Assembly: GCA_016840825.1 (NCBI GenBank)
Contig: JAEORN010000036.1
Location: 1 to 64,000 of the forward strand
Direction: 5' to 3'
Origin: Candidatus Thorarchaeota archaeon
GTDB taxonomy: Archaea > Asgardarchaeota > Thorarchaeia > Thorarchaeales > Thorarchaeaceae
DNA length: 64,000 nucleotides
Part shown: positions 7,641 through 38,336 of the stretch, one piece after another
How positions within the stretch are numbered: the stretch's first letter is position 1
Layout of the letters: the number at the start of each line of letters is the position of its first letter
The notes under the pieces: generated by a model
Databases searched by the model: none
What the model saw: the letters and a program-made list of their open reading frames with translations, nothing else
Told to the model about the DNA's origin: nothing
Made by a program: the position numbers and the translations under genes

Positions 7641-8708
7641 TCAATGTAATCTCTGGAGTACAAAATCCGCAATTTGCTCCAGAAGTGACTTTGTTGAAAA
7701 ATCATGACCAACTAGAGCGTGCTTAGCTTTGCGAACATAATCCTTAGTCAGTTCGATTGCAATGGGGATAGCTTCTGTCTTTTCAATTAGAACAAGTGCT
7801 TCTGTCACATCGCCCTTGGATAATGCCTGTAAGCAAATTAGTCGTTCTTCTTCCGATGATGCCTCAAGCGCATGAACTAATGGATATGTGCACCTCTTGG
7901 ATAACAGGTCACTATGAACTGCCTTACCTGCGATATCCTCAGATGAGATAATGTTCAATATATCATCTCTAATCTGAAATGCATATCCAAGGTTCTCGCC
8001 AAATATGCCTAATGCCGTCACTTGCTCCTTTGTTCCTTCCCCTACTGTTGCTCCCATTGACGCTGCAGCTTTAATGAATGAAACTGTTTTCTTGTTTACC
8101 ATGTCAAGGTAATTATCCTTGGTCATTATTTTTGGATTGTCAGCCTGCATGAGCATGTCTGCCGCTTCGCCCTCACACATGCGAATGCCACCTTCAGCAA
8201 TCTCAACCATTAGTTCCCCTGTGGCATATTTTCCGATCATTTTTACTGCTTGAGCAACCAAGAGGTCCCCCGCTAATATCGCCATCTTGTGACCGAACTT
8301 CTTGTGAGTTGATTCAACTCCTCTTCTGAGAGCATCCTCATCAATCACATCGTCGTGAATAAGGCTTGCAGTTTGAGCGAATTCAGTTGCAACTGCATAT
8401 GGGAGCGCTTTTTCGATATCACCACCAACTGCTTCACAACAAAGTACGACGAGTAAGGATCTTAGTCTCTTCCCTCCTGCTTTCAAAAGGTGCTTTGCTG
8501 TATCATACAGGATTTTTGGCTCTCCATCACTCCCTAGATAAGTGTCAATCTCATTGTTTATCCTATCCAATCGAGCTCTTACTTTTTCATTATGGAGCAA
8601 ATCATTGAGAAAAACAATCTCGCCATTCTGAAACTCGCTCTGAAGAAAAACTTCCTCCGCATTTGTTTCTGCAATGACCTCTTTCTCATTCACGGCTTTT
8701 GCCTTCAC
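7641..8708 (-). CDS. polyprenyl diphosphate synthase (GGPP synthase type)
   Basis: A trans-isoprenyl diphosphate synthase of 355 residues, likely making C20 or longer prenyl diphosphates for archaeal lipids or a quinone tail. Both metal-binding aspartate motifs are present: DDVID at 119-123, followed by RRG, and DDILN at 248-252. KAGGKRLR (77-84) is the substrate-binding basic motif. Residues just before the first motif are small (Ala114, Ser115), which in this family allows a long chain. About 45 residues precede the usual domain start. The gene begins with GTG. It is divergent from the UbiA gene across 131 bases. Confidence 0.92.
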   Translation of the reverse strand: MKAKAVNEKEVIAETNAEEVFLQSEFQNGEIVFLNDLLHNEKVRARLDRINNEIDTYLGSDGEPKILYDTAKHLLKAGGKRLRSLLVVLCCEAVGGDIEKALPYAVATEFAQTASLIHDDVIDEDALRRGVESTHKKFGHKMAILAGDLLVAQAVKMIGKYATGELMVEIAEGGIRMCEGEAADMLMQADNPKIMTKDNYLDMVNKKTVSFIKAAASMGATVGEGTKEQVTALGIFGENLGYAFQIRDDILNIISSEDIAGKAVHSDLLSKRCTYPLVHALEASSEEERLICLQALSKGDVTEALVLIEKTEAIPIAIELTKDYVRKAKHALVGHDFSTKSLLEQIADFVLQRLH

Positions 8709-8839: not shown

Positions 8840-9883
8840 ATGAACGCAACTTCTCCTGAGCGTAATCAAATCAGCAAAGCTAAAGCTTTCTTTTTAGAAT
8901 TGCGTGCACCTTTTCTTACAGCTTCAATAACACCTGTTTTTCTTGGGTCAGCAATTGCGTGGGCCCTTACTGGAGATTTCCTATTTGATGTGTTCATGTT
9001 GACGCTGATTGCAGGTGTTTGTTTACATATAGGTGCAAATGTTTCGAATGACTATTTTGATCATACATCTGAACGAACAGGATCTGATGATATCAATACT
9101 GAGTTCATTCGACCATTCACAGGTGGAAGTAGGATGATACAGCTTGGGTATCTATCTCCAAAAGAGGTTCTAGTAGAAGCCCTTGTCTTTTTTGGCATTG
9201 CAGGAATCATCGGTGTCTATCTTGCTATTACAAGGGGTTTCCTGATACTGGTGCTTGGAGTCATCGGTGCTGGTTCAGGTTTCTTCTATACTGCACCACC
9301 ATTTCAATTCGTTAAGAGAGGAATAGGTGAGATATTCATTGGCTTAAATTTCGGGGTTCTAATGACTTTGGGCTCGTACTATGTTCAAGCACTTGATATC
9401 ATTTGGGAACCTATTATCGCCTCAGTACCGACTGCATTACTCATTGCTGCTGTTCTATATATCAATGAATTTCCGGATTTCAATGCAGATAGAGACTCTG
9501 GGAAGCGAACCATAGTTGTACGCCTAGGAAGGGCAAGAGCTGCGAAGGGGTATGCATTAATCATTAGTATGACCTTTGCTTGGATTATCTTCTTTGCCTT
9601 CATACAACAAATAACTCCTGAATCTCTTCTTGCTTTGACGTTGCTACCGATTGGGTATGTAGGTGTAAAAACTGCACTTCGGGAATATGAAACTCCTCAA
9701 CGACTAGTACCAGCAAACGCAGCAACTGTCCTTCTTCATATGCTGATCACACTCTACCTGACAGTTGGGTATATCCTGAAAGGATTTGGATTTGATATCC
9801 TGATTGTAGCTCTTGTAGGTATTATCATGCTTCTGATTTGCTTTACTCAGTATAGGAGCCTCACTAGACCTCCTCCAATGTGA
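8840..9883 (+). CDS. menA: UbiA-family prenyltransferase, MenA-like
   Basis: A 347-residue polytopic membrane protein of the UbiA superfamily with about nine hydrophobic segments. The first prenyl-diphosphate motif is NDYFD (70-74), followed by RPFTGGSRMIQ, which is typical of the MenA branch (1,4-dihydroxy-2-naphthoate prenyltransferase). The second motif lies at about 211-222 (DFNADRDSGKRT). It attaches a polyprenyl chain to an aromatic ring in the membrane, which would provide the quinone pool for the complex I genes downstream. Archaeal UbiA relatives also make lipid and heme intermediates, so the exact substrate is inferred. TAGGAG upstream of the ATG is a good ribosome site. Confidence 0.85.
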   Translation: MNATSPERNQISKAKAFFLELRAPFLTASITPVFLGSAIAWALTGDFLFDVFMLTLIAGVCLHIGANVSNDYFDHTSERTGSDDINTEFIRPFTGGSRMIQLGYLSPKEVLVEALVFFGIAGIIGVYLAITRGFLILVLGVIGAGSGFFYTAPPFQFVKRGIGEIFIGLNFGVLMTLGSYYVQALDIIWEPIIASVPTALLIAAVLYINEFPDFNADRDSGKRTIVVRLGRARAAKGYALIISMTFAWIIFFAFIQQITPESLLALTLLPIGYVGVKTALREYETPQRLVPANAATVLLHMLITLYLTVGYILKGFGFDILIVALVGIIMLLICFTQYRSLTRPPPM

Positions 9884-9887: not shown

Positions 9888-10349
9888 CTACCTTTCTTTA
9901 CTAGACCACTTATAGAATTTGATTCCCTTCCAATAATGGATGATGTGGGGAGTCACCTCCAAAGCGACTCTAGAGCCCATTGGAAAACCGTATCCCAAGA
10001 AGTCAAGATATTTACTCATGTACTTGTTTAGAATAATATCTCCCATTTCAGGGATGCCTATCACTTTAGCGACACCTCTTACAAGTACACCTTTATTTCC
10101 CGCTGGTGAATGGGGATCTCTCTCATCAACCGTAACTGCAACATTTGGATTGTGGAGGATATTCTTCAATTTCTTCGTCTTCTCATTTGTGATGAGATAG
10201 AGTTTCCCTGTTTCCTCATCCCAATAATAGAACATTGTTGTGATATGTGGAAGACACCCTGGTTCAGCTGTTGAAAGATATGCGAAGAAACCATTATTGA
10301 GTATCTCGTGAACATATCGCGGTATTTCGATCTGAGGCGTTTGATTCAT
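9888..10349 (-). CDS. pyridoxamine 5'-phosphate oxidase-like split-barrel protein
   Basis: 153 residues with the split beta-barrel pattern of the PNPOx-like family: AYLSTAEPGCLPHITTMFYYWD, then LYLITNEKTKKLKNILHNPNVAVTVDER and a VLVRGVAKV strand. Such proteins bind FMN, F420 or heme and act as small reductases. It is the second gene of a pair: the upstream gene ends 6 bases away and carries the same fold at its C-terminus. It converges with the UbiA gene, with 4 bases between stops. The cofactor cannot be told from sequence alone. Confidence 0.8.
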   Translation of the reverse strand: MNQTPQIEIPRYVHEILNNGFFAYLSTAEPGCLPHITTMFYYWDEETGKLYLITNEKTKKLKNILHNPNVAVTVDERDPHSPAGNKGVLVRGVAKVIGIPEMGDIILNKYMSKYLDFLGYGFPMGSRVALEVTPHIIHYWKGIKFYKWSSKER

Positions 10350-10355
10350 CTATGA

Positions 10356-11661: not shown

Positions 11662-12885
11662 CTATTCATAGATCTCTTCTAGACCGTCCCATTCGAATCC
11701 CATGGCTTGAGCTACAAGAACCACTAGATCCTTGGATAATTTGTTCGATCCTGCTCCTGGAAGTTGGTTATGCATGAAGTCAACGCAAGATGGACAGTGA
11801 GATGCGACTACATCTGCGTTGGTGGCTTCTATGTCCTTTACCTTAAGGTCATTAATCTTCACAGCAAAGTCGTTGTCAATGGCTCGAAGGACTCCCCCAG
11901 AACCACAGCAGTAACAGTTTGCCTTGTTGTGAGGTAACTCTTCAAAGGTAACTCCAGGAAGATGCTCAAGCACCTTGCGAGGTTCCTCGTAGAATCCTGC
12001 ATTTCTGCCTGCATCACAACCATCATGGAATGTGACTGTAAGGTCGAGTGGTGTGGTGAATTCGAGTTTATTAGCATCGAGAAGTTCCAATAGAAACTCT
12101 GCTCCATATACAATCTCGAATCCATGATCTATCCCAAGGAACTCGTGGTATTCATGTGCCCACATCTTGTAGCATCCTGGGCAATTAGTGACGATTCTCT
12201 CAACACCCAGCTCTTTGTATTTCTCGATGTTGTGCATTGCGAACTTCTTAGCGGTATCAAAATCTCCCGTCATAATCATTGGTGCACCACAGCAATACTC
12301 CTCCTCACCAAGTAGTGTAAAGTCAACACCAGCCTTGTCGTATATGAGGGTAGATGCAATAGTACCCTGAATTGAAACACCTTTGAATGAAGACGCACAA
12401 CCCATGAATAGTGCTGTCTTTGCTGCTTTCCCCTGCAAATCAAGAACCATATCCTCGTCAGGATGCCAGTATGACCAACCTTCGATTCGATCCATCTGGG
12501 ACTGACCTTGAATGTTGTTAGTCTTGAGAAGTGTATCCCTAGCAGCCTGTAGCTGTTCTGGCCACATTCCTCTCTTCAAGAAGTCATGACGAAGTAGTTG
12601 GTAGATCTTCACGAACGGGATATCGACCTGACAAATTTCCTCACAGCCCCCACATAGCGTACAGCCAAAAATGGCGTCTCTGAGTCCTTCCAGACCTTGC
12701 GAAGCCCTTAGGCGTCCCTGAATAAGATTCCTTGCAATTACCATCTTCCCTTTGCCTGAGTAGCTATCACGTCGCTTGACTTTGTATGTTGGACAAGCTC
12801 CATTGCCTACTTGGCAGAAACTACATTGAGCGCATGTAAAAGGGATTTCATGGAGTTCGTGTGCTTCAAGTGTTGGGAATCGCAT
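11662..12885 (-). CDS. GlcF/HdrD-like Fe-S oxidoreductase (CCG domains), set 1
   Basis: A 407-residue soluble Fe-S protein. N-terminal ferredoxin part: Cys18, 21, 24 and 31 (CAQCSFCQVGNGACP, with six residues before the last Cys instead of the usual three), then CTLCGGCEEICQ. Two CCG domains follow: CCGAPMIMTGD with CPGCYKMW, and CYCCGSGGVLRA with CPSCVDF. This is the architecture of GlcF, LldE and HdrD, which take electrons from a flavoprotein partner. It is divergent from the GlcD-NuoB fusion gene across 227 bases that hold two inverted repeats, which suggests co-regulation. It is probably the electron-transfer partner of that fusion; the other three GlcF genes here are each adjacent to a GlcD. 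Confidence 0.88.
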   Translation of the reverse strand: MRFPTLEAHELHEIPFTCAQCSFCQVGNGACPTYKVKRRDSYSGKGKMVIARNLIQGRLRASQGLEGLRDAIFGCTLCGGCEEICQVDIPFVKIYQLLRHDFLKRGMWPEQLQAARDTLLKTNNIQGQSQMDRIEGWSYWHPDEDMVLDLQGKAAKTALFMGCASSFKGVSIQGTIASTLIYDKAGVDFTLLGEEEYCCGAPMIMTGDFDTAKKFAMHNIEKYKELGVERIVTNCPGCYKMWAHEYHEFLGIDHGFEIVYGAEFLLELLDANKLEFTTPLDLTVTFHDGCDAGRNAGFYEEPRKVLEHLPGVTFEELPHNKANCYCCGSGGVLRAIDNDFAVKINDLKVKDIEATNADVVASHCPSCVDFMHNQLPGAGSNKLSKDLVVLVAQAMGFEWDGLEEIYE

Positions 12886-13112: not shown

Positions 13113-15053
13113 ATGGGACTCAAGAAAAGACAAATCGAGAAGCTTGCAGAAATCTTCGGAGACCGACTTATCACTGAGAAGCACGAGCTAGTCATGTTCA
13201 ACACTGACGTTGGTGCATTACCAAAACAAGTCGGTTACATGATGAACAACAAGCCTGATGGTGCTGTACAGCCAACCACTCCGGAGGAGATTCAAGCTCT
13301 CTACAAAGTAGCAAACGATGAGAAGATTCCTCTGGTTCCGCGAGGTGCTGGAACTAGTGGGTATGGAGGAGCCATTCCACGAAAGGGTGGAATCATAGTT
13401 GATATTCGAAGGATGAACAATGTCCTAGAGGTAGACGATGAGAATCTAACAGTTCTTGTTGAACCAGGAATCTCTTGGTCAAATCTTCAATTTGAGCTTA
13501 ACAAGAAGGGACTCGATCTGAGGTGCTATCCTTCATCTGGATTGGCTGCAACTATTGGAGGATGGGTTGCACAAGGTGGCGACGGTATTGGGTCTCTAAA
13601 GTATGGAAATATCAATTCGAATGTTCTTGAGTTTGAGGTCGTGCTGCCTGATGGAAAGATCATCAAAACGATGGATACTGACTTATTCTGTGATACCGAA
13701 GGAATTCTTGGAATCATCACAAAGGTCCGGATAAAGGTCAAGAAGCTACTCCCAATCAAACCGATCGTCGTTAGTTTCCCGGAGAACTACCAAATGGTTC
13801 TCGCTATGGAGAAAATGCTTGAAGAAGGTCCTTTGCCCTTTACGATTAAATTCGAAGAATCGAAGTATACTGATCTCAAGAAGAAGGTCTGGGATGCAGA
13901 AGAGCCTTTTCCCTTCCCTGTATATCATGGAACGGTTATGGTTGCATACGAGGGTACAGAAGAAGAGATAGAAGAGGGTTTTGAGGTTGTTCGACATGTC
14001 ACAGAGGAATACAACGGAGCTGTATATGATGAGCATGTTGCAGCTCATGAGTGGCATGACCGTTTCTATCCTATGCGTGTGAAGAAAGCTGGCCCTACTC
14101 TTGTTGTTGGACAGGCTTTCGCTCCACTTGAGAATCTTGAGGCTATTCTTTCTGATTTCCAATTTGAACAGGCTTCTGCAGAAGCTGGTATTGATGGTTA
14201 TGTTACTTCAAAGAATGGCGTTACGATCATGGGATATTTCCTAGAAGATGAACGACGCCACTTCTTTATGCTTTCATGGTCTCAGAGTTTTGTGATTTTC
14301 AAAATAGCACAACGTCATGGTGGGCATCCACATGGAATCGGTATCTGGTTCGCTAACTATGCACCGCAATACTTCGGACAGCGACGACTTGCGAGGATAC
14401 GAGCTGCCAAGCTAAAGTACGATAAGAAAGAAATCTCCAATCCCGGAAAGATATTTGCATATTGGCTACCTTTCATACTTCGTATTGGTAAGTACTTTAT
14501 GTGGATTGGCTATGACCTGTTCAGGAATGGTTTTGGACGCATTGCCCCTATCCTTTTGAAATGGCTTCAGAACGTCCCACCCCTCAAATGGATGCTTCGA
14601 TGGGGTAGAGCACACAGTCCTTGGCCCGTTCAATTTGGGATTGGTTGTTGTATGTTAGACGGTGCTGCGGCTGTTGCTTCCAGATGGGATATTGAACGAT
14701 TTGGAATGCTTCCGTTATTTGGGCCCCGTCAAGCTGATGTTCTATGGATATCAGGCTCACTCACAAAGAAGATGACTCCTAGACTACGAAGAATCTATGA
14801 ACAAATGCCAGAACCCAAGTATGTGATTAGCTTTGGTCAATGTGCTGCGAGTGGAGGTATGTTTTGGGATGGATATTCGTTGATGACACCTCCTGATAAG
14901 GTGGTACCAGTCGATGTGTATCTGCCAGGATGTCCACCAAAACCTGCTGACTTTGTAAGAGCACATATCATACTCCAGAATAAGATACGCGCAGGTACGA
15001 CCTACTGGCAAAAGAAATACGAAAACCAAGACGCAATGGGGATGATGCAATGA
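13113..15053 (+). CDS. GlcD-type FAD dehydrogenase fused to NuoB (complex I N2 subunit)
   Basis: 646 residues in one frame. Residues 1 to about 450 are a GlcD/D-lactate-dehydrogenase-type flavoprotein: FAD-binding PRGAGTSGYGG (about 75-85), SSGLAATIGGWVAQGGDGIGS (about 140-160), the EWHDRFYPMRVKKAGP motif and NPGKIF near the domain end. A hydrophobic or amphipathic linker (about 455-500) follows. Residues about 500-646 are NuoB with all four ligands of cluster N2: Cys512-Cys513 (GIGCCMLDG), Cys577 (GQCAASGGMF) and Cys607 (LPGCPPKP). N2 passes electrons to quinone in complex I. The fusion would place a flavin dehydrogenase directly on the complex I body. No separate nuoB and no nuoE, F or G is seen in the window. 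Its stop overlaps the next gene in ATGA. Confidence 0.93.
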   Translation: MGLKKRQIEKLAEIFGDRLITEKHELVMFNTDVGALPKQVGYMMNNKPDGAVQPTTPEEIQALYKVANDEKIPLVPRGAGTSGYGGAIPRKGGIIVDIRRMNNVLEVDDENLTVLVEPGISWSNLQFELNKKGLDLRCYPSSGLAATIGGWVAQGGDGIGSLKYGNINSNVLEFEVVLPDGKIIKTMDTDLFCDTEGILGIITKVRIKVKKLLPIKPIVVSFPENYQMVLAMEKMLEEGPLPFTIKFEESKYTDLKKKVWDAEEPFPFPVYHGTVMVAYEGTEEEIEEGFEVVRHVTEEYNGAVYDEHVAAHEWHDRFYPMRVKKAGPTLVVGQAFAPLENLEAILSDFQFEQASAEAGIDGYVTSKNGVTIMGYFLEDERRHFFMLSWSQSFVIFKIAQRHGGHPHGIGIWFANYAPQYFGQRRLARIRAAKLKYDKKEISNPGKIFAYWLPFILRIGKYFMWIGYDLFRNGFGRIAPILLKWLQNVPPLKWMLRWGRAHSPWPVQFGIGCCMLDGAAAVASRWDIERFGMLPLFGPRQADVLWISGSLTKKMTPRLRRIYEQMPEPKYVISFGQCAASGGMFWDGYSLMTPPDKVVPVDVYLPGCPPKPADFVRAHIILQNKIRAGTTYWQKKYENQDAMGMMQ

Positions 15054-16195: not shown

Positions 16196-16306
16196 ATGGT
16201 TCAGGAACAACACTTTTACCTCACCATTTGTCCGGATTGTGAGAGTCAATTCGGGAGCGAAGAATCACTCGGGTGTTATGACAAAAAGGACGGTATCAGA
16301 GCATGA
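16196..16306 (+). CDS. tiny cysteine-containing protein preceding nuoA
   Basis: A 36-codon frame starts with ATG and opens MVQEQHFYLTICPDCESQFG. It holds a CPDC pair and a third Cys eleven residues later (LGCYDKK), reminiscent of half a zinc ribbon. Its TGA overlaps the ATG of nuoA (ATGA), the coupling used by other genes of this operon. It could be a small protein or a leader peptide that sets nuoA translation. The length and lack of a recognised family keep the call tentative. Confidence 0.4.
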   Translation: MVQEQHFYLTICPDCESQFGSEESLGCYDKKDGIRA

Positions 16307-16734
16307 GGTTATTCGTTGACTTCGTACCGGTATTAGTTTGGGCGCTATTAGCTATAGTGCTTGTGATTGTGATGCTACTGGCTTCATGGGTCCTTCGACC
16401 TCATGTTCTTCAGAACTCGGAGAAGAGATCATCCTATGAATGCGGTGAGGAACCAATTGGCACTGCCAGGATGTCCTATCCATACAATTACCTAGTTTAT
16501 ACAATTTTGTTCGTCGTCATTGATGTGATGGGTGCTTTCCTCTGGTTGTTAGCGGCATCAACCCTTCGGTTAGAGGCTATGATCGTTTGGCAGACCCTGA
16601 TCTTTGTCTTGATAATAATGGGTGGAATTGGGTTTGCAATGAAGTTACTCCCCGAAGCTTCCTTGGATGGAAAGGAAACACTTGAGCTATATAGAGAAAC
16701 CAAGAAGGCGAAGGAGGCCGCTCAAACTCATTAA
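16303..16734 (+). CDS. nuoA: complex I subunit NuoA
   Basis: 143 residues, three transmembrane helices. The conserved loop reads KRSSYECGEEPIGTARMSYPYNYLVYTILFVV, matching the family pattern YECG-P-G-AR. NuoA lies beside NuoH at the quinone chamber, and the Cys-bearing loop moves between states in well-studied complexes. It is the first standard subunit gene of the operon. NuoJ follows after 14 bases with GAGGTGA as its ribosome site. Confidence 0.93.
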   Translation: MRLFVDFVPVLVWALLAIVLVIVMLLASWVLRPHVLQNSEKRSSYECGEEPIGTARMSYPYNYLVYTILFVVIDVMGAFLWLLAASTLRLEAMIVWQTLIFVLIIMGGIGFAMKLLPEASLDGKETLELYRETKKAKEAAQTH

Positions 16735-16748: not shown

Positions 16749-17384
16749 ATGCAAGAACTAGATCCATTCCTTCAACTCTTTGAGCAGGTAGAATTCCTAT
16801 TGCTAGCAGCTATCGTCCTTGTCCTTGGATATCTAGCCTTGGAACATAGGGATATTGTCTATGCTGCATTCTTCTTTGGATTTATGGCAAGTTTCGTTGC
16901 AGGATTCTTCCTTCTGCTTGATGCTCCTTACATTGCTGGTATGCAGATTGCTGTGTATACGGGTGGCATTAGTGCTTTGATAATATTCGGTGTACTATTA
17001 CTTCCTCGGGCACAAGATAGGACTCTGGAATCATTTGCTACGCCAAGAGCTCGCATGGTTGGTTTAGTCCTAGCGGCAGTCGTCATGGCAATCTCTGGAG
17101 GTCTTGCATTGGCATTTCCGTGGCCTTCAGATATTCCAGTCGGTATTCCTGAATTTTCACAGAGCCTTCAAGGATTGGCTGAATGGCTTTGGCAGGATCA
17201 TGGTCTCTATGTGCAGATTATCGGATTGATTATCCTTACCACGCTGGTTGGTACACTCGCTCTATTGAAGATGGATAAGGGTGAAGCATTGAAGAGTGTC
17301 ACCGCTGAATTCGGTATTGAAGCTGAGCCTGAGCCAGAGATAGAAGAACACTCTCCTGAAGACCTAGAGGAGGCGTCTAACTAA
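16749..17384 (+). CDS. nuoJ: complex I subunit NuoJ
   Basis: 211 residues with five predicted transmembrane helices. The third helix region carries the NuoJ signature APYIAGMQIAVYTGGISALIIFGVLLL, which forms the pi-bulge segment coupling the quinone site to the membrane arm. The last 40 residues form a cytoplasmic acidic tail (EAEPEPEIEEHSPEDLEEAS). Its TAA overlaps the ATG of nuoK by one base. NuoJ and NuoK follow directly after NuoA here, before C and D, an order unlike the common A-B-C-D start. Confidence 0.92.
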   Translation: MQELDPFLQLFEQVEFLLLAAIVLVLGYLALEHRDIVYAAFFFGFMASFVAGFFLLLDAPYIAGMQIAVYTGGISALIIFGVLLLPRAQDRTLESFATPRARMVGLVLAAVVMAISGGLALAFPWPSDIPVGIPEFSQSLQGLAEWLWQDHGLYVQIIGLIILTTLVGTLALLKMDKGEALKSVTAEFGIEAEPEPEIEEHSPEDLEEASN

Positions 17385-17695
17385 TGGTTCCGTTAACTTG
17401 GTATCTAGTTGTTGCTTTCATGCTAATTGGCCTAGGAGCCTATGGGATGATGGTAAAACGGAATCTCATCCGTATTCTGATTGGAGCTGAGATTATGGGT
17501 AACGGAGTAAATCTTGCTTTAGTCGCCTTGGCAGTATATGGTGGATTCTTCTCATACACACCTCAAGGTCTCATTATGCTGATTATCTCAGTCGCGGCTG
17601 CCCACACTGCACTGGCATTGGTTCTGATGTTATTGTACAATCGAAGGTATGGTACAGTTGACCTTAGTATTCCTGTACAAGAGGAGGTAGCATAG
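17384..17695 (+). CDS. nuoK: complex I subunit NuoK
   Basis: 103 residues, three transmembrane helices, the family's normal size. The second helix has LIGAEIMGNGVNLALVALAV with the membrane glutamate of the proton path, and the third has a second acidic-free histidine-bearing stretch (VAAAHTALALVLMLLYNR). It is a small membrane-arm subunit homologous to MrpC. GAGGAGG precedes its ATG. One base separates it from nuoC, whose ribosome site lies inside its 3' end. Confidence 0.93.
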   Translation: MVPLTWYLVVAFMLIGLGAYGMMVKRNLIRILIGAEIMGNGVNLALVALAVYGGFFSYTPQGLIMLIISVAAAHTALALVLMLLYNRRYGTVDLSIPVQEEVA

Positions 17696-17696: not shown

Positions 17697-18200
17697 ATGG
17701 GCGCAGAAGATATAGTACGCAAGTTCAACTCGAAGTTCCCAGAGGTTCAGGCTAATGTCAAGAATGCTACTCATGTCGATGTCGTTGTACCAAAAGAGAA
17801 GATACGTGATCTAGTGAATCTGGTTGACGAACTATTCCCATTGGTGCTTCCTGAAACTGTCTTTGGTGTTGACCTTGGTGAAGATAAATATCAAGTGAAT
17901 TACATGTTCTGGTCCCGAGAGAGCAAACTGATTACTCAGTTACGCGTGAACTTGGAGAGCCCAGATCTTTCAGTGAACTCAGTAGCTGATATCTTTCCTG
18001 CCTTGGAATGGCATGAGAGAGAAACGTACGAAATGTTTGGTATTATGTTCGAGGGGCACCCCGACCTGCGACCCCTGCTCTTGCCTGATGAGCTGGTTGG
18101 ACAGTTTCCGCTCCGAAAGAGCTTCCAAACGGATAGGGAGCGAGAAACTCAAACGACTACAGTAGCGCGATCGCCACAAGCTGGAGGTGGCAACGAATGA
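17697..18200 (+). CDS. nuoC: complex I subunit NuoC (30 kDa type)
   Basis: 167 residues. The core motif WHERETYEMFGIMFEGHPDLRPLLLPDE (about residues 102-130) is the signature of the 30 kDa subunit, which shapes the peripheral arm next to NuoB, D and I. It is a free protein, not fused to NuoD as in some bacteria. It overlaps nuoD by 4 bases (ATGA), indicating coupled translation. Confidence 0.93.
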   Translation: MGAEDIVRKFNSKFPEVQANVKNATHVDVVVPKEKIRDLVNLVDELFPLVLPETVFGVDLGEDKYQVNYMFWSRESKLITQLRVNLESPDLSVNSVADIFPALEWHERETYEMFGIMFEGHPDLRPLLLPDELVGQFPLRKSFQTDRERETQTTTVARSPQAGGGNE

Positions 18201-19333
18201 GCCCCGATATTGTTGATGAATCAGTAGATATTTGGTTCGGTCCACAGCATGTTTCTGCTCATGGATGGGCTGCCAAACTCAAGCTCGTGGGAGATTTCAT
18301 CGTTGAATGTGATCCTCACGCAGGTTACTTCCATAGATCTGCTGAGAAATGTCTAGAATTCCGCAATTTCCGACAAGGCTCGCTTATCCTTGAACGGCTT
18401 TGTATGCTTGAAGCGTTCCTTTCTGAGTATCCCTATATTACTGCTGTTGAACAGATTGCTGGCCTGGTGGTTCCCGAGCGTGCGAAGGTCATGCGAACGA
18501 TAATGATGGAAGCCAGTAGGATTCACTCCCTCCAATTTTGGTGGGGCCAGTTCTCAGCTGAGATGGGATTCTTTGCGATGACTTTATGGCCATGGGTTGA
18601 TAGAGAATATTTCTTGGATGCCTTCGAAGAACTGACTGGTTCTCGACACTCTACAAGTTTTGGGACACCTGGAGGTACAAGATTCGATTTCACTGAGAAG
18701 TCTGTACAGAAGCTTGAGAAAGCAGTTGAAGTGTTGGAAAATAACCTACCAAAATTTGAGGATATGCTCCTTGGAAGTCCAATATTCAGAATGCGTACAG
18801 AAGGCGTTGCTCAATACGATGCAAAGCAAGCACTTCGATGGGGATTCTCGGGACCAAATATCAAAGCCTGTGGCATTCCTATGGACCTTCGAAAGGATCT
18901 ACCTGATCCCAATTTAGCATATGATATGGCTGATTGGGAGGTGCCAGTTACTGAGAATCCGGAGCATCCTGGAGAGAGTGATGCATATGACCGAATGGTG
19001 CAGAGGTTCAAGGAAGTAAAGACCTCGGTGAGTATCATTAAGCAATTACTGCCTCAATTGCCTGAAGGTGAATTTGTGGATCCGAAGGCACGAGCAAAGG
19101 CAAACCGTCTACCTGAAGGGGAGGCATATGGACGGGTTGAGGGAACTCGTGGCGTAATCTCTTTGTGGTTGAAAACTCTTGACAAGGCACAGACGCCTTA
19201 CAGGGCTAAGATTCGCGGTCCTTGTTTGCAATCATATTATTCGTTGAAACATCTAGTACCAAGTGCAAGGTTTGCTGATTTCATTGTGATATTTGGAAGT
19301 CTTGATCCATATCCAGGATGGTGGGACAGATAA
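18197..19333 (+). CDS. nuoD: complex I subunit NuoD (49 kDa type) with atypical quinone motif
   Basis: 378 residues, homologous to NuoD and to [NiFe] hydrogenase large subunits. The histidine loop GPQHVSAHG (His18, His22) is present. The stretch usually reading R-x-D-Y-L, whose Tyr (Tyr87 in Thermus Nqo4) binds the quinone head, reads RLCML (67-71) here, so Met70 replaces that Tyr and Cys69 the Asp. The flanks align without gaps (AVEQIAGLVVPERA). The C-terminus is SLDPYPGWWDR without cysteines, so no NiFe site is possible. This may alter the electron acceptor. The motif comparison is from memory of family sequences. Confidence 0.93.
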   Translation: MSPDIVDESVDIWFGPQHVSAHGWAAKLKLVGDFIVECDPHAGYFHRSAEKCLEFRNFRQGSLILERLCMLEAFLSEYPYITAVEQIAGLVVPERAKVMRTIMMEASRIHSLQFWWGQFSAEMGFFAMTLWPWVDREYFLDAFEELTGSRHSTSFGTPGGTRFDFTEKSVQKLEKAVEVLENNLPKFEDMLLGSPIFRMRTEGVAQYDAKQALRWGFSGPNIKACGIPMDLRKDLPDPNLAYDMADWEVPVTENPEHPGESDAYDRMVQRFKEVKTSVSIIKQLLPQLPEGEFVDPKARAKANRLPEGEAYGRVEGTRGVISLWLKTLDKAQTPYRAKIRGPCLQSYYSLKHLVPSARFADFIVIFGSLDPYPGWWDR

Positions 19334-20475
19334 TGGGAGGTGCGATGACATTGCAATTCGAATGGTTCTTTGATTGGCTATCCGGAATTCCCACATGGCT
19401 CTTTGATGTGATCTATTGGATCATAGGGATCATAATGGGAATTATCTTCTGGATTGAAGATCTGGTTAGATTTCTTTGGATATTAATCGTTGACAACTTC
19501 TTCTTCCTATTCAAGGTTGTTCTATTTCCAGGACTCATCTTCGTGGTCATGGGTTTGATATACTTCGTTTGGTTCACTCGAAAACTCTGGGGTCGCATCC
19601 AAATGCGAAGAGGTCCAATGCACTTGGGTAAGTATGGTGGTGTACAGATCTTCGCAGATGCAATAAAGCTCATTTCAAAGGAAACCATCATTCCTGATAA
19701 CTCTCGAAGATGGATGTATAGATTCCTACCTTCACTCTTACTTATACTCGTCCTGATTCCCTTCGCATTCGTTCCATGGGATACGACATGGTTCATAGCA
19801 GATCTCTCTGTTAGTCTTGTACTTGTGTTCGCATTCCTTGCAGGAGTTCCAGTTGTTGCACTCCTAGCAGGTTGGATTAGCGGCTCGAAGTATTCACTTA
19901 TCGGAGGATTCAGGGCTGCTAACAACCAATTTGCAGCGGAGATCCCGATGATCATTTCCTCGATAGGTCCAGCGATGCTTGCTGGTTCCCTAAGTATAAT
20001 GGGCATCGCAGTTGCTCAGGAATCAATTTGGTTCATCTTCTTGCTACCGATTGGCTTTGCGACCTTCCTGACAGCTTCAATTGTTTCAGTGGGAGTCTTT
20101 CCGTTTGATGCGCCAGTTGCTGATTCAGAGATCATATTTGGATGGAGGACCGAGTTCTCAGGGATATACTTCACACTCACCTATTTCGCTGAGTTTGCAG
20201 AGCAAATGCTCTATTCAGCATTGATGGTGACTTTCTTCTTTGGAGGATTTTACGGAATCCCCTGGTTCCCAGGGGCTGTGAATTTCATTATCAAGTGGCT
20301 GATTATGCTATTTGTCTTCGTGACAGTAAGCTCTTCCTTCCACAGACTTAGACAAGACCAAATTGTCCGATATTGCTGGAAATATCTGATGCCGCTAGCA
20401 ATCTTGAATGTAGTATTAGCGATGCTTGCCATCGTCTATGTGCCAGGACTGGCACCACTTCTTGTAGGAGGTTAG
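19333..20475 (+). CDS. nuoH: complex I subunit NuoH
   Basis: About 380 residues with eight or more transmembrane helices; it forms most of the quinone chamber. Conserved cytoplasmic loops are seen: RRGPMHLGKYGGVQIFADAIK, and FPFDAPVADSEIIFGWRTEF followed by SG, with the acidic residues of the E-channel. An extra hydrophobic N-terminal stretch (about 1-45) precedes the usual first helix. The start is uncertain: ATG 19333 overlaps the nuoD stop (TAATG), and 19318 and 19345 are also possible. It anchors the peripheral arm, here carrying the GlcD-NuoB fusion, to the membrane. Confidence 0.92.
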   Translation: MGGAMTLQFEWFFDWLSGIPTWLFDVIYWIIGIIMGIIFWIEDLVRFLWILIVDNFFFLFKVVLFPGLIFVVMGLIYFVWFTRKLWGRIQMRRGPMHLGKYGGVQIFADAIKLISKETIIPDNSRRWMYRFLPSLLLILVLIPFAFVPWDTTWFIADLSVSLVLVFAFLAGVPVVALLAGWISGSKYSLIGGFRAANNQFAAEIPMIISSIGPAMLAGSLSIMGIAVAQESIWFIFLLPIGFATFLTASIVSVGVFPFDAPVADSEIIFGWRTEFSGIYFTLTYFAEFAEQMLYSALMVTFFFGGFYGIPWFPGAVNFIIKWLIMLFVFVTVSSSFHRLRQDQIVRYCWKYLMPLAILNVVLAMLAIVYVPGLAPLLVGG

Positions 20476-20479: not shown

Positions 20480-20911
20480 ATGGGATTTCTTAGTAATTTG
20501 GGTGAGATAATCACAATTCTGAAACATATCTTTAGACAAATCTTCAAGAGACCCTTTACTAGCCTGTATCCATTTGAGGATAGAATATATCCTGAGAGGA
20601 CACGTGGACGTCACATTCATGTTCGACAGAATTGTACTGCATGCTCTCAATGTGTCAAAGCTTGTCCAGTCGTTGCCATTACAATTGACAAGGAAGATAA
20701 GATGTATGAGAAAGATGCAGCACTCTCCTTTGACTATACCCGATGCATCTTCTGTGGTCTATGTGTTGATGCCTGCAGATTTGATGCTCTGTATCATACT
20801 CCCATAGTTGATCTATCAGAGGAAGATCGAGCAGACTTGGAGTATGGTCCTGAGAAGATGACTACTCTCGACCGGGAACCACTAAAGTGGAGAGGAAGGA
20901 GGTTCAGGTAG
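20480..20911 (+). CDS. nuoI: complex I subunit NuoI (two [4Fe-4S] ferredoxin type)
   Basis: 143 residues. Two complete ferredoxin motifs: CTACSQCVKACP (from about residue 52) and CIFCGLCVDACR (about 92-103). These hold clusters N6a and N6b, which pass electrons to N2 in NuoB. The N-terminus (IFRQIFKRPFTSLYP) is the amphipathic membrane-surface helix of the family. With NuoE, F and G missing, these clusters are the likely entry point for electrons from the GlcD/GlcF module. Its stop abuts the next gene's ATG. Confidence 0.94.
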   Translation: MGFLSNLGEIITILKHIFRQIFKRPFTSLYPFEDRIYPERTRGRHIHVRQNCTACSQCVKACPVVAITIDKEDKMYEKDAALSFDYTRCIFCGLCVDACRFDALYHTPIVDLSEEDRADLEYGPEKMTTLDREPLKWRGRRFR

Positions 20912-22471
20912 ATGCAGGCAGTCTTCGAATTCCCATTTATGGGTGTATCACTAGCTGTACTCTTCATTGGTGGTCTTTTCATCTATCTCATGAAGAATAG
21001 ATTAGAGAAGAGTTCTGGGAGGATTGCTGTTGTAATCTCTGGAATCGCTGTAGCATTGATGATTCCTCCGTTCTATCGTGTTATGCTCGAGGATCATGCA
21101 TACAACATCGCAGAAGAGACCCTCCATTGGTCAAACATCCTAGGATCATTTGGACTTCGCTTGGATGGAATCGCATTCCCCATTACATTTGCTGTAGTCG
21201 TGCTAGGATTCCTATCTGTGGTCTATGCCGTTGGATACACTTCCCATGAACATAGCAAGCCAACATTCTTCGCGAATCAACTATTCTTCTTGATGGGCAT
21301 GCAATGGGTTACGCTGGCAACCAACCTCATCGAATTCTTTATCGCATGGGAACTGATGCTAGTACCATCCTATTTCCTCATCCTCTTCTGGGGACTCCCT
21401 GAAACCAGAAAGAGAACCGCACTCAAGTTCTGGCTCTACACTCAGAGCGGTGCTGTCTGTATCTTAATTGGATTCGGATTGCTTTACTTCATTAGTGGCG
21501 CAACTTCTTTCGAACTCGCCGTGATTCAAAGTATGATCGCCTCCTATCTTGGAGCATCAGATTTGCTTAAGCTCATATTCATTCTACTTGCTGCTGGATT
21601 CCTAGTAAAGATGGCCGTGTTTCCGATCCATTGGTGGCTTCCACCAGTACATGCCGAGGCTCCAACTCCGATCTCTGTGCTCCTATCTGGTGCTATGATT
21701 GAGACTGGTGCATACGCCTTGGTTAGATTTGGAACGATTACATTAGGACCAGCCGCAGCTGATCTTTCAGTATACATCGCTGCAATTGGTGTCATAACCA
21801 TGTTCTACGGTGGATTCATGGCATTAGTTCAGAAAGACATCAAGAGACTTCTTGCGTACTCATCAGTCAGCCAAATGGGATATGTCCTCTTTGCATTGGG
21901 AGTATTCTCTGTCTATGGTGTGTCGGGAGGTCTCTTCCATCTGATTAACCATGCGTTCTCAAAGGGACTTCTGTTTATGGCCGCAGGGACTGTTATGCAT
22001 CAGACTGGCATACGGAATATCGACAAGCTGGGAGGTCTCTCTAACAAGATGCCCATTACAGCATTCATGGCTGCTATTGGGGCGATGAGCATTGCTGGTA
22101 GTCCACCGCTTTCTGGATTTGCTTCAGAATGGATGATGTTCCTCGGTGGATTCCAAGCGGCATCTCCCCCAGGCACAGGAGTCATCGTGCAACCAATGCT
22201 GCTTATCCTGTCAATACTTGCTGTATCAAGTACAATAATGAGTGCTGGCTATATGCTACGATTCCTCTGGAAAGTCTTCCTAGGACCCAATCCAGACGAG
22301 CTCGAAGAGGTAAAAGAAGGGCCAAGGTCGATGACTATACCAATGATTATCCTTGGGTTCCTCATCGTGTTCTTTGGAATCTTCCCAGGAATTGCTCTAG
22401 ATATCATAGTACCCGCAGTGGACGCAATACCGAACATCATACCCTTCGAAGCTCCCATTCCCGTTCCATGA
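20912..22471 (+). CDS. nuoM: extra antiporter-like subunit (NuoM/MrpD type), first copy
   Basis: 519 residues, about 14 transmembrane helices, proton-pumping antiporter-like family. Helix 5 carries the key glutamate in FFIAWELMLVPSYF. Helix 7 has KMAVFPIHWWLPPVHAEAPTP, followed by VLLSGAMIETGAYALVR and KDIKRLLAYSSVSQMGYVLF. This is the first of two M-like genes that flank nuoL. Three antiporter-like subunits (L, M, N) are normal in complex I; this gene makes four. It ends 11 bases before nuoL. It could instead be regarded as an MrpD-like subunit. Confidence 0.9.
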   Translation: MQAVFEFPFMGVSLAVLFIGGLFIYLMKNRLEKSSGRIAVVISGIAVALMIPPFYRVMLEDHAYNIAEETLHWSNILGSFGLRLDGIAFPITFAVVVLGFLSVVYAVGYTSHEHSKPTFFANQLFFLMGMQWVTLATNLIEFFIAWELMLVPSYFLILFWGLPETRKRTALKFWLYTQSGAVCILIGFGLLYFISGATSFELAVIQSMIASYLGASDLLKLIFILLAAGFLVKMAVFPIHWWLPPVHAEAPTPISVLLSGAMIETGAYALVRFGTITLGPAAADLSVYIAAIGVITMFYGGFMALVQKDIKRLLAYSSVSQMGYVLFALGVFSVYGVSGGLFHLINHAFSKGLLFMAAGTVMHQTGIRNIDKLGGLSNKMPITAFMAAIGAMSIAGSPPLSGFASEWMMFLGGFQAASPPGTGVIVQPMLLILSILAVSSTIMSAGYMLRFLWKVFLGPNPDELEEVKEGPRSMTIPMIILGFLIVFFGIFPGIALDIIVPAVDAIPNIIPFEAPIPVP

Positions 22472-24790: not shown

Positions 24791-26344
24791 ATGCAGATAG
24801 ACATAGCTCAATCAATAGCGGCTGCCCTACCTCTAGGCATTCTGCCTTTCATGTTGTTCCTACCATTGTTAGCCGCTGTTTTGGTGCTTATCCTAGGTTC
24901 AAAGCCTGCACGATTAATTGCAATGCTTATCGCACTTGTAGAGATGGCATTGTCCTTTGTGCTAGGTTTAGCGATTGATCCAGCTGTTCAGTTAGACGAT
25001 CCTACCGGAGGTACATTTGGATGGCAATTTACTATTGCTCCACTGACTACAGCTGAGGATGCCCCACTTCTTCAGATACTATTAGGCGTTGATGGTCTCT
25101 CCGTTGTTATGATTATCCTTTCGAATCTTGTAGTGCTTATTGCGGCTATAAGTTCGAACCATATTCACGAATCGAAGTCTATGTACTACTCCTTCTTCCT
25201 GATGCTTCAGTCAGGACTCATTGGAGTATTCATGTCCATCGACTTATTCAGCTTCTTTGTATTCTGGGAGCTGGTTCTCATCCCAATGTTCTTTATCATT
25301 GGTAAATGGGGAGAGGAAGGTGCTCAGCATGCTGCTGTCAAGTTTGTAATCTATACACATCTTGGATCAGCAGTGATGGCAATATCCTTCTTTGTGCTAT
25401 TCTTCTTGGCACCAACTCCTACATTCAACATGGTAGAGCTACGTGGTATGGGACTTTCACCTGATGTCCAGATTGGTTTCGCCTTAGCTGTCTTCATGGG
25501 TGCTGGTGTAAAGCTACCTGTATTCCCATTGCACAACTGGCTTCCTTGGGCTCATGTGAAGGCTCCAACACCTGGATCAGTTATCTTGGCTGGAATCCTT
25601 CTGAAGATGGGCGGATACGCCTTCATTCGGTTGGGTCTCTGGATGGTACCTGAGGGCTTTGCACGTTTGAGCATTCCCTTGGCACTGCTAGCTGTATTCA
25701 CATGTATCTACGCAGCCTTTACTGCAATGGCACAGACAGACATGAAGTCCATGGTAGCGTACACATCAATCAACCACATGGCATGGGTACTACTTGGAGT
25801 GTCGGTTGGAGCCATGGGTATTACTAGTGCTGATCCTGTTCTTCAAGGAGCTGCGAATGTTGCTATTCAAGGTGCAATCTTCATGATGTTCTCCCATGGA
25901 ACAATCATCTCTGTTATGTTTATCATGGCTGGGCAGCTGAAGTATGCAGCTGGCACTCGCGAAATTCCAAAGGTTCAAGGACTTCTTGAGAAGGCACCAA
26001 AGATGTCTTCAGTATTCATACTAGCATCTTTAGCTGCGTTCGGACTCCCAGGTTTCAGTGGTTTCATTGCCGAAGCTCTGACATTATTCGGTTCAGTTAC
26101 AATCTACATCTGGGCTGGGTTGATTGGATTCGGTATCTTCATCACAGTCGGTTATCTGCTCTGGACTTTAAACAGGATGGTCTTCAGCGATCCTGATCCT
26201 GAGAAGGAGATCCATGAAGCACCGTGGAGTGATTTGATTGCACCGATTCTGATGATGATACCAGTTGTTCTACTTGGTATCTGGCCAGATCTTATTCTCG
26301 ATTTCACAAGGAGTGTTGTTCTCTTCATGCTAGGAGGTACATAA
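24791..26344 (+). CDS. nuoM: complex I subunit NuoM (canonical)
   Basis: 517 residues, about 14 transmembrane helices. The NuoM signatures are FFVFWELVLIPMFFIIGKWG (helix 5 Glu) and KLPVFPLHNWLPWAHVKAPTP with GSVILAGILLKMGGY, then MAQTDMKSMVAYTSINHMAWV. It matches classic NuoM better than the copy at 20912. It is a proton-translocating membrane-arm subunit. Its TAA shares a base with the ATG of nuoN (TAATG). Confidence 0.93.
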   Translation: MQIDIAQSIAAALPLGILPFMLFLPLLAAVLVLILGSKPARLIAMLIALVEMALSFVLGLAIDPAVQLDDPTGGTFGWQFTIAPLTTAEDAPLLQILLGVDGLSVVMIILSNLVVLIAAISSNHIHESKSMYYSFFLMLQSGLIGVFMSIDLFSFFVFWELVLIPMFFIIGKWGEEGAQHAAVKFVIYTHLGSAVMAISFFVLFFLAPTPTFNMVELRGMGLSPDVQIGFALAVFMGAGVKLPVFPLHNWLPWAHVKAPTPGSVILAGILLKMGGYAFIRLGLWMVPEGFARLSIPLALLAVFTCIYAAFTAMAQTDMKSMVAYTSINHMAWVLLGVSVGAMGITSADPVLQGAANVAIQGAIFMMFSHGTIISVMFIMAGQLKYAAGTREIPKVQGLLEKAPKMSSVFILASLAAFGLPGFSGFIAEALTLFGSVTIYIWAGLIGFGIFITVGYLLWTLNRMVFSDPDPEKEIHEAPWSDLIAPILMMIPVVLLGIWPDLILDFTRSVVLFMLGGT

Positions 26345-27846
26345 TGATGCTACAAACAAACGCTATTCTTGATTTCATTGAAGCTCTATTGACTCCATTG
26401 AGAGATATATTGATCCAGCTCCCAGCAGAATGGTATGGTTCAATCCCGGTCCTCACCTTGATTGCCTTTTCTATAATTGTGTTGATATTAGGCTTGAGAT
26501 TCAATCCATGGATAATCAGTATCATAGGAGTAATTCTTGCTACTCTAGAAGTGGCTGCTTTAGACCCTGCTTTGTATGGATCATCATTCGGAGGCTTGTT
26601 TGTACGAGATGCTTTTGCAGACTTCTTCATCTATCTGATACTGATTGTGGCTATTATCGTGATGCTCTCTACAACTCAGTATGGTGGGGATAAGGGTCCG
26701 TACAATTTCATGTTCCTAATCTCATTTGCAGGAGCTATCTGGGTCGTTATGGCAACGGATCTTATAGCACTCTTCCTTGCATGGGAACTGATGAGCACTC
26801 CGACATACATTCTTGTAGCACTTGGTCCAGACAGAATGGCACTAGATGGAGCGACGAAATATTTCGTTATGGGTCTCGTATCTACCATGTTCATGTTGTT
26901 TGGGATTGCTCTTGTCTTTGGTGTACTAGGAACAACTGTTCTCACTGAGGTAGGAGCTGGATTAGCAGCGATTTGGCTTGAGCCAGCGACCTTGGCAACC
27001 CAGGCCTATACACTTCTCCTAGCAATGGCACTCTTTGTTATCGCATTCGGATTCAAAGTGGGAATCTTTCCAGGGTGGATGTGGGTTCCTGATACCTATG
27101 CGACTGCAGATGGAAGCGTCACAGCATATCTTGCTGGAGCGACCAAGAAGACAGGTGTAAGCGCACTTGCTAGAATCCTGATGGTCGGATTCATCGCAGC
27201 ACGTTTAGAATGGTATTGGCTCATTGTTGTGGTTGCTATGCTTACTATGATGATCGGTAACTTCCTAGCTCTTGCACAGAAGGATATCATGAGAATGTTG
27301 GCATTCTCTAGTATTGCGATGATGGGCTATGTCTTTGTAGGCTTTGCTGTGAATACTGAAATTGGTATATCTTCAGCATTCTTCTTGGCATTCGTGCATG
27401 CTATAATGAAAGCTGGAGCATTTATTCTGATCTTCGCAATGTCCATTCGCCTACAGAAGCGGATCACCTATGAGGAGCTAAATGGATTGAGTCAGAGATA
27501 TCCGATTGCGGCTGCCTTCTTTGCAATCATCATCATATCCCTGATGGGCATACCATTCACGGCTGGCTTTACTCCTAAGTTCCTGCTATTCCTGAGTACA
27601 GCGGAGGTTGGTCTTTGGTGGTTGGGTCTTTTCGCATTCTTGAATGTGACCTTCTCACTCGGTTACTACTTCAGAGTGATTCGATCGATGTACTTCAGAC
27701 CTGCCAGTGATACAAGCACCTTCACTTTGCCTAAGATACCAATGTTGATAGTTGGAGTCTGTGCACTCTCCATGCTTGTTCTGTTCTGGGTACCTGGGCC
27801 GATAATTGAGCTTGCAAATGCCGCAGCTGCATTGCTTGTGCCTTAA
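26344..27846 (+). CDS. nuoN: complex I subunit NuoN
   Basis: 500 residues, about 14 transmembrane helices. Helix 5 glutamate: FLAWELMSTPTYILVALG. Helix 7/8: KVGIFPGWMWVPDTYATADGS, then AGATKKTGVSALARI, followed by ALAQKDIMRMLAFSSIAMMGY. NuoN is the antiporter-like subunit nearest the quinone module. It is the last gene of the complex I operon. A hairpin with a T-run (27854-27886) follows. Confidence 0.92.
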   Translation: MMLQTNAILDFIEALLTPLRDILIQLPAEWYGSIPVLTLIAFSIIVLILGLRFNPWIISIIGVILATLEVAALDPALYGSSFGGLFVRDAFADFFIYLILIVAIIVMLSTTQYGGDKGPYNFMFLISFAGAIWVVMATDLIALFLAWELMSTPTYILVALGPDRMALDGATKYFVMGLVSTMFMLFGIALVFGVLGTTVLTEVGAGLAAIWLEPATLATQAYTLLLAMALFVIAFGFKVGIFPGWMWVPDTYATADGSVTAYLAGATKKTGVSALARILMVGFIAARLEWYWLIVVVAMLTMMIGNFLALAQKDIMRMLAFSSIAMMGYVFVGFAVNTEIGISSAFFLAFVHAIMKAGAFILIFAMSIRLQKRITYEELNGLSQRYPIAAAFFAIIIISLMGIPFTAGFTPKFLLFLSTAEVGLWWLGLFAFLNVTFSLGYYFRVIRSMYFRPASDTSTFTLPKIPMLIVGVCALSMLVLFWVPGPIIELANAAAALLVP

Positions 27847-29402: not shown

Positions 29403-29417
29403 CTTGAAAAAATGTTC

Positions 29418-29450
29418 GAGGAGGGAAGTCTTTTCCCTTCTCATTATCCT
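29418..29450 (+). terminator. hairpin after cytochrome copy 1
   Basis: GAGGAGGGAA (29418-29427) pairs with TTCCCTTCTC (29433-29442) with one G-T pair, followed by T-rich ATTATCCTTTTC. The remainder of the 319-base gap to 29721 is AT-rich with no gene; it holds the TATA-like box listed next. Confidence 0.55.
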
Positions 29451-29655
29451 TTTCAAACATCTTCGTTGGTTAAAAAATGAAAGTGTACGCCATGTAAGTA
29501 ATTTATGAATTTGGTTACTATTCGTAATTCATCAACTATATATCTATACATAGGCACAAATATGTATATCACCAAGTTACATGATGAAATCATATTTTTG
29601 AGCTAAATTACGAAATTCGCAAATTTTGAGCACCTTCACAATATTTAACAAACAT

Positions 29656-29664
29656 CTTTAAATG
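29656..29664 (+). promoter_or_regulatory. TATA-like box of cytochrome copy 2
   Basis: CTTTAAATG lies 58 bases before the preferred ATG at 29722, which would place the transcript start about 30-35 bases before the start codon. This argues against an upstream in-frame ATG at 29662, which falls inside the box. Confidence 0.4.
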
Positions 29665-29721
29665 TATCATTGTTGCGAAGTTACAATTGTAAATCCGGGA
29701 AGAACATGGAGAATCAAAAAC

Positions 29722-35524: not shown

Positions 35525-35532
35525 CTGTCTTA

Positions 35533-36325: not shown

Positions 36326-36342
36326 ATAGAAAATCCAAGATT

Positions 36343-36366: not shown

Positions 36367-36374
36367 GTCTTTTT

Positions 36375-36910: not shown

Positions 36911-36911
36911 G

Positions 36912-38327: not shown

Positions 38328-38336
38328 TTTCTCACC

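Follow-up and report, generated by a model that had tools for sequence, protein, structure and literature searches.

A GlcD-like flavin domain fused to NuoB in the complex I locus of Thorarchaeota, a possible electron outlet

A complex I locus in a 64,000-nucleotide stretch of DNA from a Candidatus Thorarchaeota archaeon (contig JAEORN010000036.1, positions 1 to 64,000; hereafter the window) encodes a NuoB subunit that is covalently joined to an N-terminal, GlcD-like flavin adenine dinucleotide (FAD) domain. This FAD-NuoB fusion is a new form of complex I. No report of a GlcD/FAD-NuoB fusion was found in the titles, abstract starts and passages of the open-licence PubMed Central (PMC) literature, and passages of a survey of archaeal fusions name NuoBC, in some cases with D in addition, as the fusions of complex I (PMC11237513). 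We propose, at a probability of about 0.4, that the fusion and a neighboring HdrD-like iron-sulfur (Fe-S) protein form the electron outlet of a complex I pump that has no module for reduced nicotinamide adenine dinucleotide (NADH) at its locus. Thorarchaeota are archaeal relatives of the ancestor from which our own cells descend. The common picture of complex I is that of a fixed core that reduces quinone and to which different input modules can be attached. If our proposal is true, a flavin on the subunit that carries the last cluster would show that the exit side of complex I can be rebuilt too, and in an Asgard lineage.

The fused protein and its occurrence

The fusion is a single open frame of 646 codons plus a stop. 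Its three Pfam domains all score over cut-off (FAD_binding_4 at residues 48-186, FAD-oxidase_C at 218-447 and Oxidored_q6 at 518-617), the alignment to NuoB models begins at residues 490-497, and residues 491-631 align with the NuoB chain of T. thermophilus. The four cysteines that hold cluster N2 (512, 513, 577 and 607) are kept in 28, 28, 28 and 27 of 28 relatives, the last count reflecting one sequence that is cut. An earlier note on this DNA, made by a model from the sequence alone, had described a GlcD-like FAD domain and a NuoB with four N2 cysteines in one frame, and the Pfam matches, NuoB models and cysteine conservation bear this description out. Pfam together with fold and structure matches also identifies the FAD part as a fold of the vanillyl-alcohol oxidase (VAO) type, and the fold matches to LctD and mitochondrial D-lactate dehydrogenase (D-LDH) span residues 1-451. 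Structure prediction gave a predicted local distance difference test score (pLDDT) of 64 with the 43 fusions alone and of 79 with a mixed 58-row alignment. The listed fold matches of the predicted model leave the NuoB part uncovered, and the identity of this part rests on sequence matches; because these matches show NuoB, we do not read its fold as absent.

A homolog search with the fusion returned 46 further clusters with the FAD domain and NuoB in one chain (74-93% identity) among the best 120 of 377 matches; the named clusters are labelled Thorarchaeota, with one Hodarchaeota. A scan of genomes found 28 fusion loci, one of which lies on the 3,157,342-base record CP070761. These independent fused copies, together with the one on this 3.16-Mb chromosome, exclude the frameshift or assembly join that the earlier note had named as a possible refutation. 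When the NuoB part alone was searched against proteins of similar length, the 83 matches comprised the same 46 clusters, one relative that is truncated (P0048) and a further 36 long NuoB proteins, and the precomputed annotation of all 36 is free of an FAD domain. Across Asgard archaea the fusion is present in 31 of 227 genomes, with two of these copies cut by contig ends, and no search that was run returned a fusion outside Thorarchaeota-like genomes. Two of the fusion loci (L012 and L014) are in records labelled Lokiarchaeota, and because their identity is 78-80% we take the odd labels as a matter of naming or binning and not of spread. A plasmid origin was considered and rejected, as no plasmid record covers 80% of the fusion protein. 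The closest unfused NuoB among the matches listed is 63% identical and belongs to a genome without the fusion (G029); it adjoins NuoA (L052), and GlcD- and GlcF-like genes lie about 5 kb off.

Although its fold is that of a GlcD-like protein, the FAD domain lacks the motifs HxGDGNxH and EHG, which we take to be active-site motifs of GlcD and D-lactate dehydrogenases. None of the 43 aligned fusions has the His residues of HVGDGNxH or the Glu of EHG in the columns aligned with mLDHD HVGDGNFH and EHG, other residues standing in their place. A count with regular expressions, derived from the mLDHD alignment and run without a positive-control sequence, likewise finds the motifs absent from all 47 fusions and from 74 other GlcD-like proteins (best 120 of 377 matches). 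The view of the domain as a GlcD-type 2-hydroxyacid dehydrogenase is not upheld by these replacements. Because the catalytic His and Glu are absent, a pump fed by lactate or glycolate is unlikely, and we give very little credence to the wider reading in which the pump draws its electrons from a 2-hydroxyacid, be it lactate, glycolate or another, oxidized by the fused FAD domain. The absence of the motif suggests instead that the fused FAD probably exchanges electrons with proteins.

The FAD domain is nonetheless well kept. The FAD-loop residues that were checked are invariant in all 43 aligned fusions, and between the window and genome G021 the FAD part is 77% identical, the same value as for NuoD, whereas free GlcD paralogs are 48-62% identical. 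The amphipathic linker is conserved above the FAD domain (88% versus 77%), as might be expected if the domain had no redox function and served to anchor NuoB in structure or assembly. Such a role is highly improbable in light of the invariant FAD loop, of a domain conserved as well as NuoD, and of an FAD protein that persists without complex I in genome G217, described below.

The complex I locus and its HdrD-like partner

On the strand of the fusion and 3′ of it, the genes run in the order membrane protein, A, J, K, C, D, H, I, extra antiporter-like subunit, L, M, N (Table 1). The complex I core set A, B, C, D, H, I, J, K, L, M, N is therefore complete at the locus, with B in its fused form; the list of A, C, D, H, I, J, K, L, M and N drawn up in the earlier note holds and gains one further antiporter-like subunit. 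Four antiporter-like subunits (starts 20912, 22483, 24791 and 26344) are thus encoded and not three, and the same set is found in G021. A lateral-helix insertion in the long NuoL was not placeable with certainty. The cysteines of NuoI for two 4Fe-4S clusters are kept in all 18 loci that hold this gene. Directly 3′ of the fusion, a homolog of the small membrane protein (29-58% identity) occurs in 26 of 26 loci that extend past the fusion, and the protein matches no Pfam or NCBIfam family at E 0.001. It is a candidate membrane partner, of note where a heme b membrane part such as HdrE or the EtfD membrane region is considered.

Table 1. Features of the fusion and complex I locus in the window
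Feature	Position	Strand	Remarks
Polyprenyl diphosphate synthase	7641..8708	-	syntenic neighbor; also in split locus
UbiA prenyltransferase, MenA-like	8840..9883	+	TIGR00751 117 bits, cut-off 102; also neighbor in split locus
HdrD/GlcF/EtfD-like Fe-S protein	11662..12885	-	two 4Fe-4S motifs; two CCG motifs (CX34CCX35CX2C, CX35CCX36CX2C)
FAD(GlcD-like)-linker-NuoB fusion, 646 aa	13113..15053	+	FAD ~1-447, amphipathic linker ~448-488, NuoB ~489-629
Small predicted membrane protein, 181 aa	15050..15595	+	at least two hydrophobic stretches; start overlaps fusion stop
NuoA	16303..16734	+	Pfam
NuoJ	16749..17384	+	Pfam
NuoK	17384..17695	+	Pfam
NuoC	17697..18200	+	Pfam
NuoD	18197..19333	+	His38-equivalent kept, Tyr87-equivalent replaced by Met, no NiFe CxxC pair
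NuoH	19318..20475	+	family match
NuoI	20480..20911	+	eight cluster cysteines
Extra antiporter-like subunit	20912..22471	+	over NuoM model cut-off; nearest PDB chains MrpA, Mbs, Mbh
NuoL, 768 aa	22483..24789	+	longer than matched chains (613-656 aa)
NuoM	24791..26344	+	family match
NuoN	26344..27846	+	family match

The quinone site of NuoD is altered in a consistent manner. In T. thermophilus numbering the quinone-site residues are His38, Tyr87 and Asp139; the His is kept in 24 of 24 sequences, Met stands at the Tyr87 position in 24 of 24, and Glu replaces Asp139 in 23 of 24 (one is cut). Because the His is kept and Asp139 is exchanged for Glu, some carrier may bind at NuoD. This NuoD is not that of a group 4 [NiFe] hydrogenase, for it has RLCMLE and SLDPYPGWW in place of the two nickel CxxC motifs.

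The gene at 11662 encodes a likely redox partner of the fused FAD. Its cysteines are kept in all loci that cover them, with the exception of Cys324, which lies outside the motifs and is Ser in 2 of 21. The full CC form, as in Hdr, is seen in both CCG motifs, whereas EtfD, the best PDB match, has Thr in place of one such Cys. No strongly hydrophobic stretch was found in the protein by a simple window average. Among 27 loci with sequence upstream of the fusion, the HdrD-like gene is directly adjacent and divergent in 20, with a gap of 166-362 bases; in five (L007, L010, L012, L015 and L016) it keeps this side and strand at a distance of 2.3-9.6 kb, and in two (L002 and L011) it is not in the stretch, the ortholog sitting on another contig in both genomes. 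Upstream of the fusion, these last two have a gene with a heme-binding CxxCH motif. Of 227 Asgard genomes, 32 carry the ortholog; the fusion is present in 29 of these, a matching NuoD alone in two (G210 and G213, where no fusion was found) and a split form in one. The fusion genomes missing from this list are G018, whose gene is cut by a contig end (L018), and G028, whose locus (L028) begins inside the fusion. As related genomes are not independent, these co-occurrence counts are given without a probability. They bear out the link between the fusion and the GlcF-like gene at 11662 that had been drawn from the window alone.

The split form, in G217, provides a view of the same proteins without complex I. 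Here the HdrD-like protein (65% identical) neighbors a 498-residue FAD protein that is 57% identical to fusion residues 1-494 and stops within a few residues of the position where NuoB starts. The left flank is that of the window, with a geranylgeranyl-reductase-like gene, the prenyl synthase and UbiA, and lacks the PPOX-type genes; the right flank consists of an acyl-CoA-synthetase-like gene (51697 in the window), three other genes and then hydrogenase genes (61025 onward in the window). Complex I and the other intervening genes are missing between these shared flanks, and searches of the G217 genome, which may be incomplete, found neither a NuoB nor a NuoD of the Thor type. A second split protein (P0052, 83% identical) indicates that the split form is maintained. 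In a tree, the 22 fusions included group together, apart from the split form (97/96), and fusions and split pair make up a larger group (100/100). Since the FAD and HdrD-like genes are neighbors in G217 without complex I, and between flanks common to the window, the two proteins appear to be a module of their own, and in the fused form they are most simply one module on the subunit that holds N2. The fusion may be derived, or complex I may have been lost in G217. The fused and split forms of one locus offer a natural experiment on how respiratory complexes gain new redox partners.

Direction of electron flow

We found no NuoE, NuoF or NuoG among the 48 open reading frames of the window scanned with Pfam, a set that left out short and overlapping frames. 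Among the 28 fusion genomes, NuoF is present in four and missing in 24, and the NuoG Fe-S domain matches weakly in the same four and over cut-off in one, in each case on contigs other than that of the fusion. The only NuoF cluster examined (L036) combines NuoE-, NuoF- and molybdopterin-type genes with other redox genes, and chromosome G021 has neither NuoF nor the NuoG Fe-S domain. The scarcity of NuoF and its absence from the locus make NADH an unlikely input in most fusion genomes. In contrast, coenzyme F420 may be an input, given that an FrhB_FdhB_C-family protein is found in 25 of the 28. The sole FrhB-like protein examined, in G021, has a 4Fe-4S dicluster region that resembles FpoF and scores 130 bits against an FpoF cut-off of 475, and its gene is located about 35 kb from the fusion between a HerA-type helicase and a metallohydrolase-like gene. 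The inference in the earlier note that neither NADH nor F420 is the direct donor thus stands for NADH in most genomes, but F420 may still be a donor. A nuoEFG or fpoF-like set elsewhere in the genome, which the same note had held to count against it, is rare in its first form (NuoF); for the second, FrhB-like proteins are widespread candidates, with the G021 example below the FpoF cut-off.

A separate nuoB that could serve the locus was also sought. Among the matches listed, the other NuoB-like proteins of fusion genomes reach no more than 47% identity with the fused NuoB. G021 has two further NuoB-like proteins in open frames of 260 and 311 residues, and NuoB-like frames of 163-204 residues occur in 8 of 28 genomes, with longer second frames of about 240-330 residues also present. 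The 163-204-residue forms were rejected as a complex I nuoB because they resemble subunits of group 4 hydrogenases: the three loci read, of eight, show both nickel motifs, and a fourth has a hydrogenase gene order. A second complex-I-type nuoB, the other finding that would have told against the note, was not seen among the matches listed and the loci read.

In the pathway we favor, a low-potential donor, either ferredoxin or F420H2 by way of an FrhB/FpoF-like protein, would reduce NuoI, and electrons would move from NuoI through N6b and N6a to N2 in NuoB. From N2 they would pass to the fused FAD and then to the HdrD-like protein, which would deliver them to a disulfide or other acceptor, and the four antiporter-like subunits would couple this flow to pumping. 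We prefer this reading because the catalytic motif of the FAD domain is missing, the Tyr of NuoD is lost, the CCG motifs of the HdrD-like protein are intact and four pump subunits are present. In addition, NuoB holds the last cluster of the complex I chain, which counts for an outlet. The bolder form of the proposal is that the Thorarchaeota complex I does not end at quinone and, by passing electrons from N2 to the NuoB flavin and an Hdr-like partner, is a proton-pumping ferredoxin:disulfide (or similar) oxidoreductase; this we regard as doubtful. The suggestion of a dehydrogenase-fed complex I, made when only the window had been read, was right about the fusion and its Fe-S link; as to direction, the pair may drain complex I instead of feeding it. 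The favored arrangement resembles that of hdrD-glcD with Fpo, as proposed for other archaea in passages of one study (PMC6783470).

Several observations weigh against an outlet. In 7 of 27 loci the fusion and the HdrD-like gene are not direct neighbors, and in G217 the HdrD-like gene shares its strand with the FAD gene in place of the divergent order of the window. NuoD retains the quinone-site His and has Glu for Asp139, and we know of no worked-out mechanism for pumping without quinone chemistry in the NuoD cavity. Weak MenD matches were obtained in 4 of the 12 genomes tested (11 with the fusion, and G029). Moreover, the MenA-like UbiA and the prenyl synthase are conserved neighbors, in the split locus as well, and two multiheme cytochromes c with cytochrome c maturation genes lie 3′ of the operon in the window, all of which favor a lipid carrier and a respiratory chain.

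Nearly as likely as an outlet is the opposite course, in which the fused FAD and the HdrD/GlcF-like protein replace NuoEFG, receive electrons from a protein donor such as an electron-transferring flavoprotein (ETF) or from some substrate, and allow complex I to reduce a prenylated carrier made by UbiA. The kinship of the 11662 protein with EtfD and of the FAD domain with LctD, as well as the adjoining UbiA gene, are consistent with this course. The driving force would be small, however, as an ETF reduced by acyl-CoA oxidation is probably too oxidizing for a pump with four antiporter-like subunits. The menaquinone pathway was also not recognized at the two steps tested, with an MqnA-family gene of the futalosine route in 0 of 28 genomes and MenD over cut-off in 0 of 12. 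Finally, the quinone Tyr is lost in NuoD, and NuoB is the end of the normal chain and not its start.

Electrons could also branch, with ferredoxin or F420H2 reducing NuoI, a lipid carrier reduced at NuoD, and the FAD/HdrD-like module confurcating or bifurcating. This would suit the wide occurrence of the FrhB_FdhB_C family, the 4Fe-4S region at the N-terminus of EtfA in both genomes examined, a feature shared with LctC, and the FAD-based bifurcation known for LctD-EtfAB (structure 7qh2). We nevertheless consider a branch improbable, as the FrhB-like gene of G021 is distant from the fusion, among unrelated genes, and scores far below the FpoF cut-off. An outlet through the fused flavin, if true, would shed light on energy conservation in Thorarchaeota in the absence of NuoEFG and of a recognized menaquinone pathway.

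Further redox genes were observed in the window and in related genomes. The multiheme cytochromes c and CcmF-, CcmC-, CcmB- and ABC-ATPase-type genes are found at window 27960-31068 and 33443-39053. Three further GlcD-like/GlcF-like gene pairs surround an amine-oxidase-like gene (window 39099-50251), the GlcD-like proteins being without hydroxyacid motifs; a 2129-residue protein with no Pfam family at E 1 follows at 53859-60248, and sulfhydrogenase-beta-like, DHODB-type and small (NuoB-family, 280 residues) subunits at 61025-63720 reach the window end. Beside complex I, a DUF7530 membrane domain is fused to a PPOX-type domain next to a second PPOX gene (window 9888-11612, and L058:9482-10714 in G205, of another Asgard lineage), possibly a flavin or F420 enzyme tied to complex I. 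An aldehyde ferredoxin oxidoreductase is fused to EtfB in G021 (L063:9491-12370) and adjoins an EtfA with an N-terminal 4Fe-4S region, and in G013 (L064) EtfB is separate, with 262 residues. In other Asgard archaea (L053:8576-10582, L054, L055, L056, L061 and L062), a chain of 666-671 residues has two N-terminal Fer4 motifs followed by NuoB-like and NuoD-like domains, as seen in a Pfam scan of L053. The six chains read have an Mbs-like RxCVLDG motif and no nickel motifs, and judging from these motifs the chain is an I-B-D fusion from a complex that is Mbs-like and probably not a hydrogenase.

Comparison with known systems

The Thorarchaeota complex I is most readily compared with Fpo/Fqo and the Fpo-like complex I of archaea, with which it shares 11 core subunits, the lack of NuoEFG and a NuoI open to a soluble donor. 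It differs from these in the N-terminal FAD domain of NuoB, the loss of the quinone Tyr, a fourth antiporter-like subunit and the absence of FpoF from the locus. Within Asgard archaea, passages of a study of Sifarchaeia and Jordarchaeia describe complex I without NuoEFG and Dld-type genes beside HdrD genes, and propose that ferredoxin feeds the complex in these two classes (PMC9723677). The archaeal HdrD-GlcD pairs that have been proposed as partners of Fpo-like complexes involve the same two families as neighboring genes and lack the hydroxyacid motif in the related sequences examined, but in the Thorarchaeota fusion the GlcD part is covalently joined to NuoB.

Individual parts of the system also have known relatives. 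EtfD, the ETF:menaquinone oxidoreductase (9ojn), has 4Fe-4S and CCG domains homologous to those of the 11662 protein, which differs in that strongly hydrophobic stretches are lacking and that each CCG domain has the full CC motif. The fold of the FAD domain is shared by LctD of LctD-EtfAB and mitochondrial D-LDH; the motif His and Glu of D-LDH are replaced in the fusion, and the likeness to LctD is one of fold. The nearest solved relative of the Thorarchaeota NuoD belongs to Mbs, the membrane-bound sulfane sulfur reductase (6u8y, 203 bits), which also lacks the quinone Tyr and has Val at this position. In contrast to Mbs, the Thorarchaeota locus combines the A, J, K, L, M and N arm of complex I with the FAD fusion.
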